64,000 nt of DNA from Corallococcus macrosporus (lineage in GTDB: Bacteria > Myxococcota > Myxococcia > Myxococcales > Myxococcaceae): positions 248,001-312,000 of the forward strand of contig NZ_JAFIMU010000002.1 in assembly GCF_017302985.1 (NCBI RefSeq). Reading direction: 5' to 3'. Every line of letters begins with the position of its first letter. Positions within the stretch are counted from its first letter, which is position 1. Shown here piece after piece: positions 25,985 to 34,063 of this stretch. The translations under genes and the position numbers were made by a program. A model generated the notes under the pieces. It was not told the DNA's origin. It did not search any database and saw only the letters and a program-made list of their open reading frames with translations.

Positions 25985-27043
25985 ATGGTCCAGGTCACGC
26001 GTCCTTCCAGCCTCACGCCGTCCACCCAGGCGCGGGTCGCTCCGGAGGCCCCTGTCCGGGCCAGGGGCGCGCAGGGCTTCAACGCCATCGTGAAGGGCGA
26101 CAGCTTCAGCTCGGCCGCTCCGGCGGGTTCGCAGCAGGTCAATGCGCTGCGCCTTCCCATCCCGTGGCCGGGCAAGGGCGAGGCCGACAAGATCGGCTGG
26201 ATCCAGAAGGCGTATCCGCCCGCGAAGGACTCCACCGCGGAGTTCATGAAGCTGAACCAGGCGGTGCGCGCGGGCCAGAACGTGATGCCTCCCGAAGCCA
26301 AGAACTGCGTGTTCCTGGCGGTGGGCGGACTGCTCTCGGAGGCGGCGCCCAAGCAGTTCTACTTCGACAAGAACCTGGACGCGCTGGAGGCGCAGGGGCT
26401 CCAGGTCGGCCGCGTGCCGGTGGACACGGACATGGGCGTGGAGCACAACGCGGCCATCGTCCGCCAAGCGGTGCTGGAGGCTTCGAAGAACGGCAAGCAG
26501 GTGGTGCTGATTGGCCACAGCAAGGGCGGCCTGGACTCCGCGGCGGCGCTGTCGATGTACCCGGAGCTGAAGGAGCACGTGCGCGCGCTGGTGACCATCC
26601 AGTCGCCGTACGGCGGCTCGCCCATGGCGCAGGACCTGCTGGACAACCCGCTGGTGCGCTACGGCGTGGGCGGCGCGGTCGAGGCGCTCGGCGGCAGCAT
26701 CCAGGCCGGTGAGGACCTGACGTACGACTCGCGCAAGGAGTTCCTGAAGAAGCACCCGATGCCCGCGGGCATCCCCACGGTGTCGATGGCCTCCACCACC
26801 GCGAACCCGACGTCGCCGCTGTTCGCGATGCAGGAGTACATGCACCAGCGCTACGGCGTGAAGTCAGACGGCCTGGTGTTGCCGCAGGACGCGTTCATCC
26901 CGGGCTCCAAGTCCGTGACCCTGTCCGGCCTGGACCACCTGGACTCCACCGGGACGACGCTGAACCCGTTCAAGCCCTACCAGCCCGAGGACCTGACCCT
27001 CTCGCTGGTCGCGATGGCGCTGAACATGCCCAAGGGCAGCTGA
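25985..27043 (+). CDS. Alpha/beta-hydrolase, lipase-like
   Basis: This 352-residue protein has an alpha/beta-hydrolase core. The nucleophile elbow GHSKGG lies at about 177-182 (Ser179) after a strand QVVLIG. An acidic candidate lies in KSDGLVLPQDAF and a histidine in GLDHLDST near the C-terminus, the order expected for a Ser-Asp-His triad. NCVFLAVGGL near residue 100 would form the oxyanion region. The N-terminal 40 residues are low-complexity with no clear signal peptide. The family includes triacylglycerol lipases and PGAP1-like esterases; the substrate is unknown. Its last codons contain the left copy of a 17-bp direct repeat that recurs at 34047-34063. Confidence 0.82.
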   Translation: MVQVTRPSSLTPSTQARVAPEAPVRARGAQGFNAIVKGDSFSSAAPAGSQQVNALRLPIPWPGKGEADKIGWIQKAYPPAKDSTAEFMKLNQAVRAGQNVMPPEAKNCVFLAVGGLLSEAAPKQFYFDKNLDALEAQGLQVGRVPVDTDMGVEHNAAIVRQAVLEASKNGKQVVLIGHSKGGLDSAAALSMYPELKEHVRALVTIQSPYGGSPMAQDLLDNPLVRYGVGGAVEALGGSIQAGEDLTYDSRKEFLKKHPMPAGIPTVSMASTTANPTSPLFAMQEYMHQRYGVKSDGLVLPQDAFIPGSKSVTLSGLDHLDSTGTTLNPFKPYQPEDLTLSLVAMALNMPKGS

Positions 27044-27055
27044 AGCCTCACGTCC
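27039..27055 (+). repeat. Left 17-bp direct repeat of the RHS module
   Basis: Gctgaagcctcacgtcc spans the stop codon of the lipase-like gene and is repeated exactly at 34047-34063. Everything between the two copies is the RHS toxin module, so the pair may mark its insertion ends. Confidence 0.55.
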
Positions 27056-27245: not shown

Positions 27246-27635
27246 ATGTGGCATGATTGTCTGCGAGCTGAACCGAAGGGTTCGAGCCGAAGGAGAAGGC
27301 TCGCCCTGTTGATGGCGCTGATGGGTGGGGTGATGGGGTGCAGCGAAACCCCTGCCAAGCCCGCTGCAGTCAAGAGTACCCCGGCAACCGCAGCGGTCCT
27401 GTCGGAGCATCGGTTCAAGGCCAATGCTTCGAGCAATGGGTTCCCACTGGGACATGATTGCTCCACGGGCGGCGTCTCCGACTGTGCGTCCGGGCTCTGT
27501 GTGCACGTCGGCGCGCAGCGGGATGCAGGCTATGTCTGCACGGAGCCGTGTGACGCCAGGCGCCCCTGTTCCAATGGTTGGCGATGCGCGCAGGTTCACC
27601 CCACGGATCCTTCGGCTCGCGTCTGTCTTCCCTGA
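27246..27635 (+). CDS. Cys-rich small lipoprotein
   Basis: This 129-residue protein has an Arg-rich n-region and a hydrophobic stretch ending in the lipobox GVMGC (Cys at about 32). The mature C-terminal half carries nine cysteines in a pattern typical of myxobacterial secreted Cys-rich modules (DCSTGG, DCASGLC, CTEPC, PCSNGWRC, VCLP), likely disulfide-bonded outside the cell. It stands 96 bases before the RHS frame start that I prefer, in the same orientation, and the RHS protein also begins with a Cys-rich region. It may be a surface partner or accessory of the RHS protein. The start codon is uncertain because no Shine-Dalgarno is visible. Confidence 0.7.
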   Translation: MWHDCLRAEPKGSSRRRRLALLMALMGGVMGCSETPAKPAAVKSTPATAAVLSEHRFKANASSNGFPLGHDCSTGGVSDCASGLCVHVGAQRDAGYVCTEPCDARRPCSNGWRCAQVHPTDPSARVCLP

Positions 27636-27731
27636 AGGCAGAACCGCTGCACGTTGAAGCGCAATCCGGTTCGCCGGTCAGGCCAAATTATTATGTCGAG
27701 ATGGATTTCAATGGGTTTCTCTAGAAACACG

Positions 27732-30700
27732 ATGAGTCAGCGCGTTCCGTACTTCATGGGTCTGCTGCTGGCAGGCCTCCTGCTCATGCCAGACACCGTC
27801 CTGGCCTACGGCACGTTCAGTTTCTGCGCGCCTCCCCCCAGTGGTGGGAACACACTGGTTCAGTGGGCTTGCACCTGTCCTGATGCCAACGGCAATACAG
27901 GAACGCTGTACTGCAATGGCAATGACCCGAATGGGGGATGTCATCTGCAGACATGCCTCTATCCTCCGAATGGAAGTCAGACGGATATTGGCAACTATAC
28001 ATGCTGCCCTACCGGCATCACCTGTGGATCGAGCTATACGGCGTTCAAGGTCCTCAATGAAAGCTGCTACGGACCGGACTGGGAGTGCGATCTCGGCACC
28101 GAGTGCACGGCTCCGGATGATGTCTGCAAGACGGGGTACTGTGAGGCGAAGGTTGATGATGTTCTTCCCTCGGGGGAGCCCATCAACGACAGGGCTGAAT
28201 GCAAGTACAGCGACTACTCCGCCTGCGATGACGAGGACGATGTATGTGACGGCGTGGGGGGCCCTGGCTGGGTCGGAGATCCGGTCGTCGTGGCGTCCCG
28301 GGGGACCCGCCACCCGGTGACCGACGTGGAGATCCAGGGGACGGTGGGGGGGCTCTCGCTGGAGCGCACCTATGCCTCATCCGTGAGACTGTGGGCCAAC
28401 CAGAAGAGCCTGGGGGAGGCCGGAGGCTCTTATCTGGCACGACCGTTCGGAGCCGCCGCGGAGAACCGCGAGTCGCTGCACTGGTGGCATGATTTCTACA
28501 GTTTCGTCCATCCCGTGGGCAGCGGTGGCGGCGAAACCTGGAAGCTGCGTGAGGGAAACGGGAGGTTGCTTGAGTTCACGGGGTGCACCCGGTCCGCGAC
28601 GTCGTGCCTTGCTCAGCCCGCCTCCGGCTCCAAGGAAACCCCAGCGCGGCTGGTCTGGGAGAGCACCGGTAGCGGCGCCGGTTATTTCGTCCTGCACAAG
28701 CCTGGCGAAGGGCGCTTCTTCTTCGAAGCGGTCTGGAGCCCCACGGGCAGCGCCAGTTCGTCTGACACCCGCTACTTCCTGACGCGAATCGAGGATGCTC
28801 AGCACCCGGCTCCAGGTGGTCTGCCCCGGACTCGTGCCACCTTGAGCTATGCCGTGCCCGCGGGCCTGACGTGTCCTGGCGTGGGCGCTGGACCGACGGC
28901 AGGTGTTCCCTTTCTTTACGAGGTCAGCTCCTTGGAGGGGACCCGCCTGCGATTCATCTACAAGAAGCTGCCGAGCGCACGTGCTGAAATCGGAGAGGAA
29001 TGCGTCCTCGCGAGTGTGTCACTCGTGGGCGACGCCGGCGTGTTGATGCCCCTCGTGGAATACACCTATGCACCCACCGGCTCCGTGAGCGAAGTCGGAG
29101 GGCGCATCGCCCAGGCGAAGTGGCCTCAGCGCGGGGGGATGATCGAGAAGTATGAGTACAAGGACAGCACGGGTGCTCCTGCCTGGAAGGTCAGTCGAGA
29201 CAGTACTCCCCAGACGCTGCACACCTACCAGAATGGCTATGTCACGTATGATTCCGAGTCCTTGACTGGCTGGTTCGAGATCAACGTGCAGATGGCCACC
29301 CGCACCACCGGGGCATGTGATTCCAGCTCCTCGCCGGAGTGCCTGGAGCGGATCATGAGCACGGTGGTGAAGCATGGCTACCTGGGGAACGGCGGCGGGT
29401 ACGCGGGTTACGAGGGGCGGAGCTACGTCCAGGAGCGGACGGGCTTCGCGAGAGCCCCCCGGGTCAAGAGCATTGGGGTGGGCTGTTCCGGGACCAGCTG
29501 CACCCGGATGCAGGAGTATGTCTGGAGCACCCTGTCCAACGGCGTCGTCGTCAACCGTGCGAAGAAGGACTGGAATGGCGCCTGGACGGCCCGTGACTGG
29601 GTGGTTCCCACGGGGGCGACCTCGTCCACGCTGCCGGAGCTCCGCACGCTGGCCGTCGGCGCGACCGCCGCGGACGGGACAGGGGCCCTGGAGACCACCC
29701 ACTATACGTACGAGGAAAGCACCGCCGGAGCCGGGATCGTTCTGGGAGAGCGCCTGCGCGTCGAGGAGAAGAAGGTATCGCTTCTCCAATCTGGCGCCGA
29801 CGCTGTTCAGCGCAATGTGTACGACCCCCTGACGAATCGGCTCCAGGCGGTCATCCGAAGTGGCTACACGGAGGGGCTGGGCTCGGGTGGCGCGGCTCCG
29901 GTGCCAGTGCTGAAGCATCAGGCGACCTTCTATTTCACGCGTCAGGTGTGTTCGGGAGGAACCACCGATGATGCCCTGGGCCGGGTGCTGGAGGTTCATG
30001 GCCCGTGCTGGGTGAGTGGCCCCACTGCCACGGATTGCTCGGCAACACTCAACGCGACGATTCCTGTCACCCAGTATGAGTACTGGTCCGCAGGGACGGG
30101 CAACTCCAATGCCAACCGCCTGAAGAAGGTCTCCCGGTATCCGCAGGTGACCTCCGTGACGGGGTGCTCGGGGCAGACGGCCCTGGAGACCCAGTATGCG
30201 AACTACGACGTGCGGGGGAATCCCCGGAGCGTCACGGACGCCAATGGCATTGAGACGACCTATGCCTATGAGGAGGACCGGGTCACTTCCATCACGACGC
30301 AGGGGGCGACCTGGGAATACCTTTATGACAACGGAATGATGACGGCCATTCACTTCCCCCGGGGTGACTACGAGCGTTTCTGCTACCGCGGTTCAGGGTT
30401 CGGCCATTGTACGAGCGGCTGGATGGGGAAGCTCACGCTGCGAGCCAAGCAGGCGTTCTTGAACAGCTACACCTGGAGCGAGGAAGTCCAGTACGACTAC
30501 GGGCTGGACCGGCAACCGCAGCGGGAGACGTTCCATTCCAACGATGGCTCGGATCTCGAGCGCAGGCAGCGCAGCCTCCGGGTGGACATGAATGGAAATC
30601 CTGCCTACGAGTTGGTGGGAGGGCGCGGCGGCGGCTATCCTCCCTATTACATCCGTCCGAAGCTGTTTGACGGAGCGAACCGATTGATGGGTGTGGGCCT

Positions 30701-33686
30701 CGCCTACAACTCGCCTCCCGCGTTGTGTGGCGGATTGGATGTCGACGGACGGCCCGTGTCACCGCTTTGTAATGCGATGAGTTACGACCGGGCGGACCGG
30801 TTGACCGGCGTGGATGAGTATCCGGAGATTGGAACGCGAACCGGGGGAACACGGACGTGCATGTCTTACGACGCGCACGGAAACATGGCGACGGTGCGCA
30901 CGGGGTGTCCAGCCACAGGCGCGGGTGGGGACTGCACTGCTTGCGCTCAGCCTGAGTCCACCTATCGATACGACGACTTCGGGCGCGTCATCGCGGTCAA
31001 GCTGCCTTGGCAGGGGGGCGATGGGTGGACGCGCTACGACCATGACGCTGCCGGCAATCTCCTGGCGAAGCAGACGCCGCAGATGCGCGCGGATGGAGAG
31101 CACCTGGCCTATGCCTACGATGCGATGGGGCGACGTTTGTCCGCGACGCGTGTCGTGGGCGGCTCCTCGCCGCTCACGGAGACGCTCTACACGCTGGGCT
31201 ACGACAACTCCGCGACACCAGATTCGAGTTGCCCGCAGCCTGTGAATACCCTGGGCAGGACGCTCTTCCGGAATGACTCCTTCGGCCAGACCTGGCTGTC
31301 ATATGACGCCTGGGGGCGGGTCACGAAGGAAATCAGGGTGAGGCGTTCCGCGGGGAACACGTTCACGTGCCCGAGTGATACGCCAGCAAGCACGCTGCAT
31401 ACGAGTTACGCGTATTCCACGTCAGGTGACCTGTTGTCCGTGACCTACCCCTATGGGCATCGTGTCACCTACGGGTATCGCCTCTACCCCAACACCACGG
31501 TGCCTTCGGACCGGGTTGGAACTGTCACGGTCGAGCGTTGGAGCGGGAGTGCATGGACGGCGCTCGCCAGTGTGTCGGACATCCTGTGGGAGCCCTATGC
31601 GGGGCTGCGTTCCTACAAGATCAATTCCCCAGGGGCTGCGAATCCCCTCTACGTGGAATACGCGCTCGGAAACAACAGTGATGCCCCGCCTGTGTCGCCA
31701 TGTTCGGAAGCGGCGCCTCCCTATTCGGATTTTACGGGGCGGCTGCGCAATGTCTGGGTTTCGTCCGCGGGGTTCTCCTGGTCGGGAGGCACGGGGAATC
31801 TGTACCGGCGGGTCAATACCTGGAAGGGAGACGAGATCATCCAGGAGGATACGTGCCTCCTGGGAGGGCCGACTCCCACGACCGTGAAGTATGAGTATGA
31901 CGGACTTGGGCGGCTCAAGAACGTTACCCGTCCCGCTGGGAATGTTGCCGCGGTGGGTGGGACAGTCAGCTCCCGGAGCTACGGGTATGACGGGCGTGGA
32001 AACCGGATCAGTCAGGTCGAGGATGGAACAGCGCTGACCTTGACCCATGGCACGGGGGCTCTGGTCGACCGGCTTGAGCGCAGGCAGGGAAGCGCCGCTG
32101 GTTCGATGCTGGATTACCAGTATTCGTATGACCTGGACGGCCGCGCCATGGGGAAGCGCTGGGTAGAGGTTGCCGGGACGCCTGTGTACCAGCTGCAGTT
32201 CAACCACGGTGCGTCCGTGGGTGGTGCGTCGGAGACGGTGTTTCGCTCCGTGGACGTCAATGGAAGTACCTACGAGTACTTCTACGACGCGATGAATCGG
32301 CGGCGGCTCAAGCGCTATCCGACCACGGCGGAAGATGAGTTCTTCTACGACCTTGACCATTCGCTTCTGGTTGATCGGGGTAATCCATCTGTGTCACCAC
32401 CGGTGGGAGGATTCACTCAATACGTGGATGACACCTATGTGTGGCTGGATAATCGGCCAATCATGGTGGTTCGGGGGCAGTTGACATCTGGGATGTCGCG
32501 AGTCGTGAGCCCGGTGGGAGGTTGCACCCGAAATGGGGAGGCCGCGCCGTGCGGTGTGTACTTCCCGGTAACAGATGCCATTGGTAAGCCAATTGTGATG
32601 TTTGACTCCTCGGCCAAGGTAGCTGGAACTGCGGACTACGATCCGTTTGGCCACGTCAACCGGGTAGCGCTAGGCCAGGAGTCGTCTCATCCGCTGCTTG
32701 GAACGGATGGGGGCGCCGTTCAGGAAAGCCTGCTGGCTGAAATGAGCCAACCAGTCTCGGAGGACGGCGGGGTCATGATTCGTGAGCGTGCGCTTTTCCA
32801 CTTACTGGACACAGGAGATATGGCGCGTGTGGAGTTGCGCAATCAGACCGATGGCGGGGTCCTGTCCAGTGTACTGACCGCGACGGCAGCGGGACAGGTT
32901 TGGTCTCCCTGGGTTGAGCCTCCTGAGGGAAAGTCCTCAGTTGTATTGGTGACGACAGGCCCGTCAGCGCCTCAGGCCTCAGAGGGGGTCGTGGCAGAAG
33001 GGTATGAGTACCAGCGGTTCCAACGAGGTGGGCAGCCCTATTGGGTGCCGCTGCGGTTCCCGGGCCAATACCATGATGCTGAGACAGACTTGTTTGAGAA
33101 CTGGAACCGGTACTACGAGGCTGCCACATCCATTTACCTGCAGCCAGAGCCGCTTCTTCAGAGCCCCAGTTTTGTGATGGGCATGGCGATGCAGGGGGTG
33201 AGCATCCCAATGTATGCCTACGCGAACAGCAATCCATTGCGTTTTGCTGATATGACTGGGTTGTTCACGGTAGACACGCGATCGATGCGGGCCTGTCTCG
33301 GGGCAAACCAGTGGAAGTGGACCAAAGCCTATGAAATACTCAGGAGGATGGCGAACAGTCCACGTTGTTCTTCGGAGTTTAGGACCAAGTATGGTGCAGA
33401 TCTGAACCAACTTCTAGATTACTGGCGACCGGGTGCCACTTTGAAGTTTGGTGACATACGGCCGTCCCTGGCAGGGCAGCAGCAAGGAGACGACATCACC
33501 GTGCAGTGTAGCCTTTGGGCAGGAGCTGCAACACCCAAAGCACTTGCCGCTACGGTCGTTCATGAACTTGCGCACTACGCGAACATGAAAGCCGGAGAGC
33601 CTCTGTCGGAAGTTGCTCCTTCTCACGGTGGAGCCAACATTACCGAATTCGAGTGCGTAGATGAGTGCCAGTGGGGAGAAGACTAG
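27732..33686 (+). CDS. RHS/YD-repeat protein with C-terminal metalloprotease toxin domain
   Basis: This 1984-residue protein (start ATG 27732, before the hydrophobic signal MGLLLAGLLLMPDTVLA) has a Cys-rich segment at about 20-170, an RHS entry region (GDPVVVASRGTRHPVTDVE, LSLERTYASS), then many YD repeats (YDDFGRVIAV, YDHDAAGNLL, YDAMGRRLSA, YDGRGNRI) forming the beta-cocoon that encloses a toxin. The core ends with the hallmark YAYANSNPLRFADMTGLF near residue 1845. The last 139 residues differ in composition and contain HELAH at 1944-1948, a zinc-protease motif. It is therefore a polymorphic toxin delivered outside the cell. The frame is intact. A small lipoprotein follows immediately and may be its immunity protein. 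Confidence 0.92.
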   Translation: MSQRVPYFMGLLLAGLLLMPDTVLAYGTFSFCAPPPSGGNTLVQWACTCPDANGNTGTLYCNGNDPNGGCHLQTCLYPPNGSQTDIGNYTCCPTGITCGSSYTAFKVLNESCYGPDWECDLGTECTAPDDVCKTGYCEAKVDDVLPSGEPINDRAECKYSDYSACDDEDDVCDGVGGPGWVGDPVVVASRGTRHPVTDVEIQGTVGGLSLERTYASSVRLWANQKSLGEAGGSYLARPFGAAAENRESLHWWHDFYSFVHPVGSGGGETWKLREGNGRLLEFTGCTRSATSCLAQPASGSKETPARLVWESTGSGAGYFVLHKPGEGRFFFEAVWSPTGSASSSDTRYFLTRIEDAQHPAPGGLPRTRATLSYAVPAGLTCPGVGAGPTAGVPFLYEVSSLEGTRLRFIYKKLPSARAEIGEECVLASVSLVGDAGVLMPLVEYTYAPTGSVSEVGGRIAQAKWPQRGGMIEKYEYKDSTGAPAWKVSRDSTPQTLHTYQNGYVTYDSESLTGWFEINVQMATRTTGACDSSSSPECLERIMSTVVKHGYLGNGGGYAGYEGRSYVQERTGFARAPRVKSIGVGCSGTSCTRMQEYVWSTLSNGVVVNRAKKDWNGAWTARDWVVPTGATSSTLPELRTLAVGATAADGTGALETTHYTYEESTAGAGIVLGERLRVEEKKVSLLQSGADAVQRNVYDPLTNRLQAVIRSGYTEGLGSGGAAPVPVLKHQATFYFTRQVCSGGTTDDALGRVLEVHGPCWVSGPTATDCSATLNATIPVTQYEYWSAGTGNSNANRLKKVSRYPQVTSVTGCSGQTALETQYANYDVRGNPRSVTDANGIETTYAYEEDRVTSITTQGATWEYLYDNGMMTAIHFPRGDYERFCYRGSGFGHCTSGWMGKLTLRAKQAFLNSYTWSEEVQYDYGLDRQPQRETFHSNDGSDLERRQRSLRVDMNGNPAYELVGGRGGGYPPYYIRPKLFDGANRLMGVGLAYNSPPALCGGLDVDGRPVSPLCNAMSYDRADRLTGVDEYPEIGTRTGGTRTCMSYDAHGNMATVRTGCPATGAGGDCTACAQPESTYRYDDFGRVIAVKLPWQGGDGWTRYDHDAAGNLLAKQTPQMRADGEHLAYAYDAMGRRLSATRVVGGSSPLTETLYTLGYDNSATPDSSCPQPVNTLGRTLFRNDSFGQTWLSYDAWGRVTKEIRVRRSAGNTFTCPSDTPASTLHTSYAYSTSGDLLSVTYPYGHRVTYGYRLYPNTTVPSDRVGTVTVERWSGSAWTALASVSDILWEPYAGLRSYKINSPGAANPLYVEYALGNNSDAPPVSPCSEAAPPYSDFTGRLRNVWVSSAGFSWSGGTGNLYRRVNTWKGDEIIQEDTCLLGGPTPTTVKYEYDGLGRLKNVTRPAGNVAAVGGTVSSRSYGYDGRGNRISQVEDGTALTLTHGTGALVDRLERRQGSAAGSMLDYQYSYDLDGRAMGKRWVEVAGTPVYQLQFNHGASVGGASETVFRSVDVNGSTYEYFYDAMNRRRLKRYPTTAEDEFFYDLDHSLLVDRGNPSVSPPVGGFTQYVDDTYVWLDNRPIMVVRGQLTSGMSRVVSPVGGCTRNGEAAPCGVYFPVTDAIGKPIVMFDSSAKVAGTADYDPFGHVNRVALGQESSHPLLGTDGGAVQESLLAEMSQPVSEDGGVMIRERALFHLLDTGDMARVELRNQTDGGVLSSVLTATAAGQVWSPWVEPPEGKSSVVLVTTGPSAPQASEGVVAEGYEYQRFQRGGQPYWVPLRFPGQYHDAETDLFENWNRYYEAATSIYLQPEPLLQSPSFVMGMAMQGVSIPMYAYANSNPLRFADMTGLFTVDTRSMRACLGANQWKWTKAYEILRRMANSPRCSSEFRTKYGADLNQLLDYWRPGATLKFGDIRPSLAGQQQGDDITVQCSLWAGAATPKALAATVVHELAHYANMKAGEPLSEVAPSHGGANITEFECVDECQWGED

Positions 33687-33691
33687 TTTCA

Positions 33692-33904
33692 ATGCGTCTG
33701 ATTTATTGGGCGATTGTGTTGGTTGGTACGGGGTGTGCCCGGTCTACGAGAGTAGATCACTTCAATGACATTCTTCCTGGATGCCAGGGGGCACCTCCGG
33801 TTTCCTCTCCGTGTGAATGCCCTCCCTCGTCCCTGAGAGACGAGTTCTGTCCAGAAGACGCAGGTGAACGGTCTGGAAGCCCGCCACTCCAAACACAGAA
33901 GTAG
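33692..33904 (+). CDS. Small lipoprotein, candidate immunity protein
   Basis: This 70-residue protein starts at the ATG 5 bases after the RHS stop. It has a short signal peptide with lipobox LVGTGC, so it would sit in a membrane facing the periplasm. The mature 50 residues include five cysteines (the lipid Cys, GCQGAP, PCECPP, FCPED) and no known domain. Its position directly after the toxin C-terminus, lower GC than the genome and small size are what is expected of the immunity gene of a polymorphic toxin. It is short, so a role as an accessory lipoprotein cannot be excluded. A 9-bp hairpin follows. Confidence 0.65.
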   Translation: MRLIYWAIVLVGTGCARSTRVDHFNDILPGCQGAPPVSSPCECPPSSLRDEFCPEDAGERSGSPPLQTQK

Positions 33905-33914
33905 TGATGGCTTT

Positions 33915-33941
33915 GTGCAGAGAAATGCCTCGTCTCTGCAC
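33915..33941 (+). terminator. Hairpin after the RHS/lipoprotein pair
   Basis: Gtgcagaga (33915-33923) pairs perfectly with tctctgcac (33933-33941) around a 9-base loop, 11 bases past the stop of the small lipoprotein gene. No U-tract follows; a likely end of the RHS transcript. Confidence 0.5.
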
Positions 33942-34046
33942 CGTGCTCCTATGGCGGGCCGGAGCATTCTCGTTCTTCGCGTGTCGTAGATGTGAAAATT
34001 GAATTTGGTGATTGTGGCTGCCACGCCCGCGAAGAAGACGAGGGAG

Positions 34047-34063
34047 GCTGAAGCCTCACGTCC
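34047..34063 (+). repeat. Right 17-bp direct repeat of the RHS module
   Basis: An exact copy of the sequence at 27039-27055, same orientation, overlapping the 3' end of the minus-strand acetyltransferase gene. The match stops at once on the right side and is only partial (aggg) on the left. Confidence 0.55.

Follow-up and report, generated by a model that had tools for sequence, protein, structure and literature searches.

Organization of the locus

We analysed a window of 64,000 nucleotides (nt), positions 248,001-312,000 of the Corallococcus macrosporus contig NZ_JAFIMU010000002.1 in a genome of 9.8 Mb, and all coordinates below are those of this window. An earlier note, made from the sequence, had read the region 33262-33904 as the metalloprotease-like end of an RHS toxin followed by a lipoprotein gene for immunity. 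As shown in Table 1, the locus also comprises a gene upstream of the RHS gene, P0004, which that region excludes. We read the locus as a myxobacterial RHS toxin cassette of the polymorphic, exported type, with a probability of roughly two in three that this reading shares with the whole explanation developed below.

Table 1. Genes and sequence features at the RHS locus
Feature	Position	Strand	Evidence or remark
Alpha/beta-hydrolase-like gene, left flank	25985-27043		Named by eye
Left direct repeat of 23 nt, 21 of them matching the right copy (perfect over the 17 nt 27039-27055)	27033-27055		Left end of the insert
P0004, upstream companion lipoprotein	27246-27635	+	Lipobox cysteine and eight conserved cysteines; linkage to RHS
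RHS polymorphic toxin open reading frame (ORF)	27654-33686	+	2010 codons; PF05593 E 1.9e-23, TIGR03696 43.5 bits
Sec signal peptide, type I by eye	27732-27806	+	Cysteine-rich N-terminal region after it; related RHS N-termini show this pattern too
RHS core end, 76 amino acids (aa)	33039-33266	+	Alignment of cores; YYEAATSIY instead of YYDPSxGRY
Toxin tail, putative zinc metallopeptidase, 139 aa	33267-33683	+	Two relatives, profile comparison
HELAH (HExxH) motif	33561-33575	+	H99, E100 and H103 invariant in tail alignments
P0002, lipoprotein-like, probable immunity protein, 70 aa	33692-33904	+	Relatives and context
Hairpin, 9-bp stem without T-run	~33915-33941	+	Folding, terminator scan
Right direct repeat	34041-34063		Extends into the resident acyltransferase-like gene at its 3' end
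Acyltransferase-like gene, right flank	from 34056	-	Named by eye

The RHS protein passed the cut-offs of the repeat models PF05593 (82.7 bits, cut-off 22) and TIGR01643 (50 bits, cut-off 15.8) and of the RHS-associated core model TIGR03696 (cut-off 32.5 bits), while PF03527 stayed below its cut-off (25.8 versus 27.9 bits). Translation probably starts at the in-frame ATG at 27693, 27711 or 27732, and the earlier placement of HELAH at residues 1944-1948 fits counting from the third of these. Cleavage of the signal peptide is predicted, by eye, after VLA. The tail consists of the 139 aa after NPLRFADMTGLF. The ORF and the end of the core at 33266 thus bore out an RHS core with a 139-residue tail; the tail exists as described, and only its start, given as 33262, was five bases early, the true position being 33267.

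The guanine-plus-cytosine (GC) content was 0.548 in the tail, 0.603 in the adjacent RHS sequence and about 0.67-0.73 in the flanking chromosome. The tail is therefore lower in GC, as had been seen, though the content is low throughout the RHS gene and reaches its minimum in the tail region. The ORF of the predicted 70-residue lipoprotein was found where it had been placed, 5 bp past the RHS stop codon. The hairpin reported downstream is also present, with a stability of z -2.1 over a 96-nt stretch (4 of 200 shuffles were equally stable). Since it has no T-run and the terminator scan gave no site at 33915-33941, a role as terminator was not supported.

RHS polymorphic toxins are expected to have a self-cleavage site where the core ends. 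The core in the window retained the DxxG aspartate, which was D in 99 of the 100 cores that could be parsed out of 101. At 33114-33140 it deviated from the conserved YYDPSxGRY motif; among 95 parsed cores, position 28 was D in 83 and E in 6, and position 32 was G in 92.

A variable tail with a conserved HExxH motif

Searches covered 96 genomes of the family, and the tail profile was also run over 195 genomes of the phylum. Used as a single query, the tail gave matches at E ≤ 0.01 in five family genomes, namely its own, two with real relatives and two with spurious matches; the latter (L005 and L006) were rejected, their frames belonging to a histidine-kinase-like protein. Both real relatives were RHS tails, found in genomes G090 (28%, HELYH) and G094 (25%, HELGH). 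The profile recovered the same three members from the phylum. In wider genome contigs the single tail had no match and a three-row profile found only the two loci already known, and viral contigs contained no match to the tail family. Among PDB sequences, the tail matched a single chain, which was unrelated (E 0.17).

All three tails have the two histidines and the glutamate of HExxH in common, along with four invariant cysteines and some further invariant residues, so that the motif was kept in 3/3 members. It arose in 58 of 20,000 shuffles of the window tail, which makes a chance occurrence unlikely, not impossible. An acidic residue before the last cysteines is, by eye, a candidate for the third zinc ligand. 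In a profile comparison of the tail against the 64 remaining RHS tail clusters, HExxH clusters took all ten top places. The best, with nine members, aligned over 113 columns (probability 91, E 1e-6, E-values here being based on small alignments) and the second over 107 columns, and these two alignments span most of the tail.

Both tail relatives are followed by a gene with a lipobox-like start that overlaps the RHS stop codon by 4 bp, which places the downstream lipoprotein-like gene at +5, -4 and -4 nt in the three members of the family. The partners in G090 and G094 gave no blastp match to P0002 at E ≤ 1, and matched each other at E 0.06. At locus L031 of G094, two RHS core ends with different tails lie about 0.8 kilobases (kb) apart, the first in an open frame of 417 codons; we read these tandem core ends as displaced tail modules.

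HExxH tails and exported partners across the family

RHS core ends were found in at least 76 of the 96 family genomes. From part of the listed places and from loci already retrieved we assembled 101 distinct core-plus-tail stretches ending in a stop codon, which formed 65 clusters; the tail relative of G090 is absent from this sample. HExxH was present in 31 of the 101 tails, compared with a mean of 0.3 and a maximum of 3 in shuffled tails. As partner we took, in both groups, the closest ORF with 60 aa or more whose start lay between -45 and +30 nt relative to the RHS stop; it was called exported if it had an N-terminal uncharged hydrophobic stretch. Two of 31 HExxH tails and 10 of 70 others had no candidate partner under this rule.

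Exported partners followed 26/29 HExxH tails and 23/60 others (Fisher p = 3.3e-6; from 3e-6 to 2e-5 over three choices of start window), and partners with a lipobox followed 11/29 and 5/60, respectively (p = 0.002). Counted per tail cluster, the partner was exported in 13/13 HExxH clusters versus 18/45 others (p = 7e-5). An earlier, cruder rule, which chose wrong frames in several cases, as seen in the HExxH group, had given the same direction, with 25/31 versus 27/67 tails (p 2e-4) and 10/13 versus 20/49 clusters (p 0.03). The suggestion in the earlier note that a lipoprotein partner fits a toxin acting in the periplasm is in line with these counts, HExxH tails generally having exported partners.

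At loci L050, L051, L130 and L140, the gene after the HExxH tail encodes a small, exported protein rich in cysteine. We considered whether these proteins were relatives of P0004 and rejected this, as none matched the P0004 profile described below (A4) at E ≤ 1. They are possible disulfide-rich protease inhibitors.

Insertion site and RHS orthologues

The direct repeats at the ends of the insert are spaced 7008 nt apart. The right-hand acyltransferase-like gene was matched in 16/16 genomes of the genus. The site is empty in G016 and G027, where about 10-14 bp separate the matches of the two flanking genes, and homology between the window and these empty sites ends at 27055 and restarts at 34041. 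In G019 the separation is about 0.4 kb and holds no likely gene. In the seven remaining genus genomes the contig ended or the hydrolase-like gene was outside the fetched stretch. Because homology breaks at the empty sites and direct repeats stand at the ends, P0004, the RHS gene, its tail and P0002 probably arrived as one unit. Direct repeats as a general feature of RHS inserts were not supported: at 15 of 16 other RHS loci the 2.5 kb to each side contained no exact repeat longer than 15 nt, and the 16th, L219, sits in a long duplication.

RHS orthologues in three genomes carried other tails. G021 has a relative of P0004 (61%) and the same RHS gene (70.3-75.1% by part) beside the right-hand gene; this RHS protein ends in an unrelated HEAVH tail and is followed by a different membrane-anchored partner, whose gene ends about 30 bp before the right-hand gene. 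No hydrolase-like gene was found in the 2.3 kb of contig upstream of the P0004 relative, so a shared flank is shown for the right side only, and the left flank of G021 either differs or lies beyond the contig. In G028 an orthologous P0004-RHS pair is located on the other side of the hydrolase-like gene and has another tail and another partner, the RHS identity being 63.7% in the N-terminal part and 80.1-85.2% in the middle and core. A partial RHS orthologue in G017 (77.4-87.4% identity) also has a tail that differs from that of the window. Variable RHS C-termini, which the earlier note had given as a known property of such toxins, were thus found in a comparison run across species. At the level of sequence, these comparisons show a tail that is variable, a conserved HExxH motif, and a tail and downstream gene carried in one inserted unit.

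The gap between the hydrolase-like and acyltransferase-like genes is an insertion hotspot with other cargo in relatives. G029 carries there what is by eye an ATP-synthase operon (L113, 7696-14132), and G018 and G020 (L110 and L111) carry genes that are by eye nuclease- or regulator-like.

P0004 as an upstream companion of RHS genes

P0004 was found at 93 places in 55 of the 96 family genomes, and at 76 of these 93 places an RHS core end followed 4.3-6.5 kb downstream on the same strand. Conversely, among the matches listed, P0004 was upstream in 76 of 111 RHS core ends; many of the other 35 were in short open frames or cut by contig ends. A 10-row P0004 profile (A4) placed 77 of 90 hits (E up to ~7e-12) 4.3-7.5 kb upstream of an RHS core end. 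Of the 13 other hits, at least three reached a contig end and two came from beyond the family, to which the RHS search was confined. The rows of A4 had been chosen with a pattern demanding eight cysteines, which matched 12 of 30 loci, two of them wrongly, leaving the 10 used; because of this pattern, the invariance of the eight cysteines within A4 is by construction. Twenty other P0004 loci taken without the pattern had the eight cysteines in 20/20 cases and the lipobox cysteine in 18/20. P0004 had no Pfam or NCBIfam match at E ≤ 1 and no PADLOC or PHROGs match at E ≤ 0.1. A phage search, with P0004 as the only query tried, gave no match, and neither did a plasmid search with P0004, P0006 and P0002.

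Downstream of P0004, the RHS N-terminus was readable at 28 of 30 loci. By eye all 28 carry type I signals, and 21 have at least 13 cysteines within the 180 residues after the signal. We infer a role for P0004 in display, folding or anchoring of the RHS protein. Anchoring by P0004 predicts that RHS proteins without it carry their own lipobox; this was not supported, since it failed in the two readable cases, L196 and L197, which have type I signals by eye. At L201 (G070:C2:971300-971548) a P0004 relative has decayed, with four stop codons, and an RHS core end follows about 6 kb downstream; this may be a case of natural loss.

P0004 could also be read as a protecting protein, a general guard against RHS tails, given that it is an envelope lipoprotein by sequence and linked to RHS genes. 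We consider this highly improbable, because its relatives in G021 and G028 precede RHS genes whose tails are unrelated, an immunity protein is usually specific to its tail, and the profile matched no downstream candidate partner at E ≤ 1.

Proposed function of the locus

The explanation that we favour, at a probability of about two in three, is that the tail is a zinc metallopeptidase toxin, P0002 its lipid-anchored immunity protein and P0004 a helper of the RHS protein. The RHS protein, with its Sec-type start, would carry the variable HExxH tail out of the cell, where the tail would cut an envelope protein of a neighbouring cell. P0002, held in the periplasm by its lipid anchor, would bind and block an incoming tail and also the tail of the producer, which would itself cross the periplasm. 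In a further step, P0004 may assist in the export, folding or anchoring of the RHS protein regardless of the tail it carries. The pairing of an RHS toxin with a lipoprotein partner, proposed in the earlier note, is largely supported, by comparison only, through the single insert and the partners beside both tail relatives.

A wider and more tentative reading, to which we give somewhat less than an even chance, is that the Sec-exported RHS toxins of this myxobacterial family make up a module together with an unnamed eight-cysteine lipoprotein specific to them, the P0004 family, whose gene stands immediately before theirs and whose product displays or anchors the RHS protein in the envelope with any tail, and that within this module the address of the immunity protein follows the chemistry of the toxin, zincin tails going with envelope-anchored or exported immunity. 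P0004, directly upstream of many RHS genes, offers a concrete candidate for a display component missing so far, and the link between zincin-like tails and exported partners predicts from their sequences where about 30 toxins act.

Several observations weigh against the favoured explanation. In the Pfam and NCBIfam scan no family model reached its cut-off for the tail; sub-threshold matches were SprT-like (E 0.09) and Tox-MPTase3 (E 0.23; 12.1 bits against a cut-off of 25), and no other Tox-MPTase model appeared at E ≤ 1. Places 5-10 of the profile ranking covered 10-39 columns around HExxH only. The AlphaFold model of the tail, built from three sequences, was weak (mean pLDDT, the predicted local distance difference test, 61) and matched no solved PDB structure (best E 1.2). 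The export of partners was judged by a hydrophobicity heuristic, not a trained predictor, and the partner rule was rewritten after the first result had been seen. Release of the tail may be impaired, because the core in the window departs from YYDPSxGRY. The copies of P0002 outside the window, described below, count on the same side.

The altered DPSxGRY motif also bears on a different role for the HExxH tail, which might be a peptidase acting in the release or maturation of the RHS protein, or might be inactive, instead of being a toxin. Another route of release could be needed with such a core, and releasing metallopeptidases occur in polymorphic toxins, as reported by Zhang et al. 2012 (PMC3482391). 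We regard this role as improbable, since the tail stands at the variable toxin position, where RHS orthologues have unrelated tails, and HExxH tails are accompanied by variable exported partners, as toxins are.

P0002 has an imperfect lipobox, V-G-T-G-C, whose cysteine is retained, by eye, in five clear relatives (E < 1e-7) from G024, G022, G054, G070 and G090 (66, 67, 45, 44 and 43%, respectively). Further matches at E > 0.004 look like noise, and the matches L071 and L072 were rejected as lying in unrelated frames. No RHS core was present in the 11.9-19 kb around each of the five relatives, the stretch in G022 being cut by a contig end, and among the copies found P0002 adjoins an RHS tail in the window genome only. 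The relatives in G054 and G070 occupy one shared chromosomal place beside ordinary-looking genes. G090 holds a tail relative with a different lipoprotein, and its P0002 relative is elsewhere. P0002 might accordingly be a passenger, a generic myxobacterial lipoprotein acquired with the insert, with the true immunity gene elsewhere or immunity unnecessary as the RHS cage hides the tail; the stand-alone relatives, the shared place in G054 and G070, the shortness of the gene, its low codon bias and the imperfect lipobox all fit this. We hold it to be unlikely, though less so than a processing role of the tail, because P0002 begins 5 bp after the tail and inside the insert, both tail relatives also have a lipoprotein-like gene in that position, and the relative in G024 lies near a relative of another RHS partner.

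At a distance of 0.3 kb from that relative in G024 stands a gene with 64% identity across 186 aa to the partner of another RHS tail, L161. The cluster (L073, 8346-10802) consists of the P0002 relative, by eye two small cysteine-rich exported proteins and a HEAT-repeat-like protein, and the relative of the L161 partner, and it looks like an orphan-immunity cluster. P0002 may have been recruited out of stand-alone genes of its family or, conversely, may have given rise to them.

Comparison with known systems

In Myxococcus xanthus, large Rhs proteins with signal peptides act in kin discrimination (PMC10433427), and whether their targets must be recognised is marked as unknown (PMC10047993). Rhs4 and Rhs5 of that species resemble the RHS protein of the window in being large, with a signal sequence and a variable C-terminal toxin, and their delivery is independent of type VI secretion (PMC10433427). 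They differ in having about 4000 aa and lying in the Mx-alpha prophage, whereas the RHS protein of the window has about 2000 aa and is encoded in an insert between two resident genes; it also has a zincin-like tail and a conserved eight-cysteine lipoprotein upstream, the latter unmentioned in the accessible part of PMC10433427. SitA/SitI of myxobacteria are likewise polymorphic toxin-immunity pairs of kin discrimination (PMC5562445), but SitA toxins are lipoproteins (PMC10047993), whereas the toxin here is an RHS protein.

The tail resembles the Tox-MPTase1-5 families, small zincin-like HExxH domains typically found behind RHS repeats (PMC3482391), although it stays under the Tox-MPTase3 cut-off. 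The only lipoprotein immunity protein named in the accessible part of that survey is Imm65, the partner of another toxin. The metallopeptidase VgrG2b is toxic in the periplasm and not in the cytoplasm; one member of its family of immunity proteins is an outer-membrane lipoprotein (PMC6899460). VgrG2b with PA0261/Tpi1 thus shares with the proposed pair the HExxH motif, periplasmic action and exported immunity, in one species by an outer-membrane lipoprotein, but it is a type VI spike fusion, whereas the protein of the window combines a Sec-type start with RHS repeats. Bacterial teneurin-like proteins (PMC13018210), common in Myxococcaceae, also have a YD/RHS cage, a variable toxin and an immunity gene immediately downstream. 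They differ in their FN-plug and NHL domains and, in Myxococcota, in predicted signal peptidase II (SPII) lipoprotein signals; in the window protein only RHS repeat, RHS and DUF6531 models were found in Pfam at E ≤ 1, with no FN-plug or NHL model, and the signal is type I by eye.

Signal-peptide Rhs proteins, small zincin RHS tails and, in type VI secretion, a periplasmic zincin with a lipoprotein immunity family are already known. In the literature within reach, which mostly excluded subscription papers, we found no account of the tail family, of the link between zincin tails and exported partners in myxobacterial RHS proteins, or of the P0004 companion, and this is weak evidence of their novelty. 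What is new is the locus as a member of these toxins, together with the conserved P0004 companion and the compartment rule, both worth testing, which make it more than another member of the known RHS toxins.

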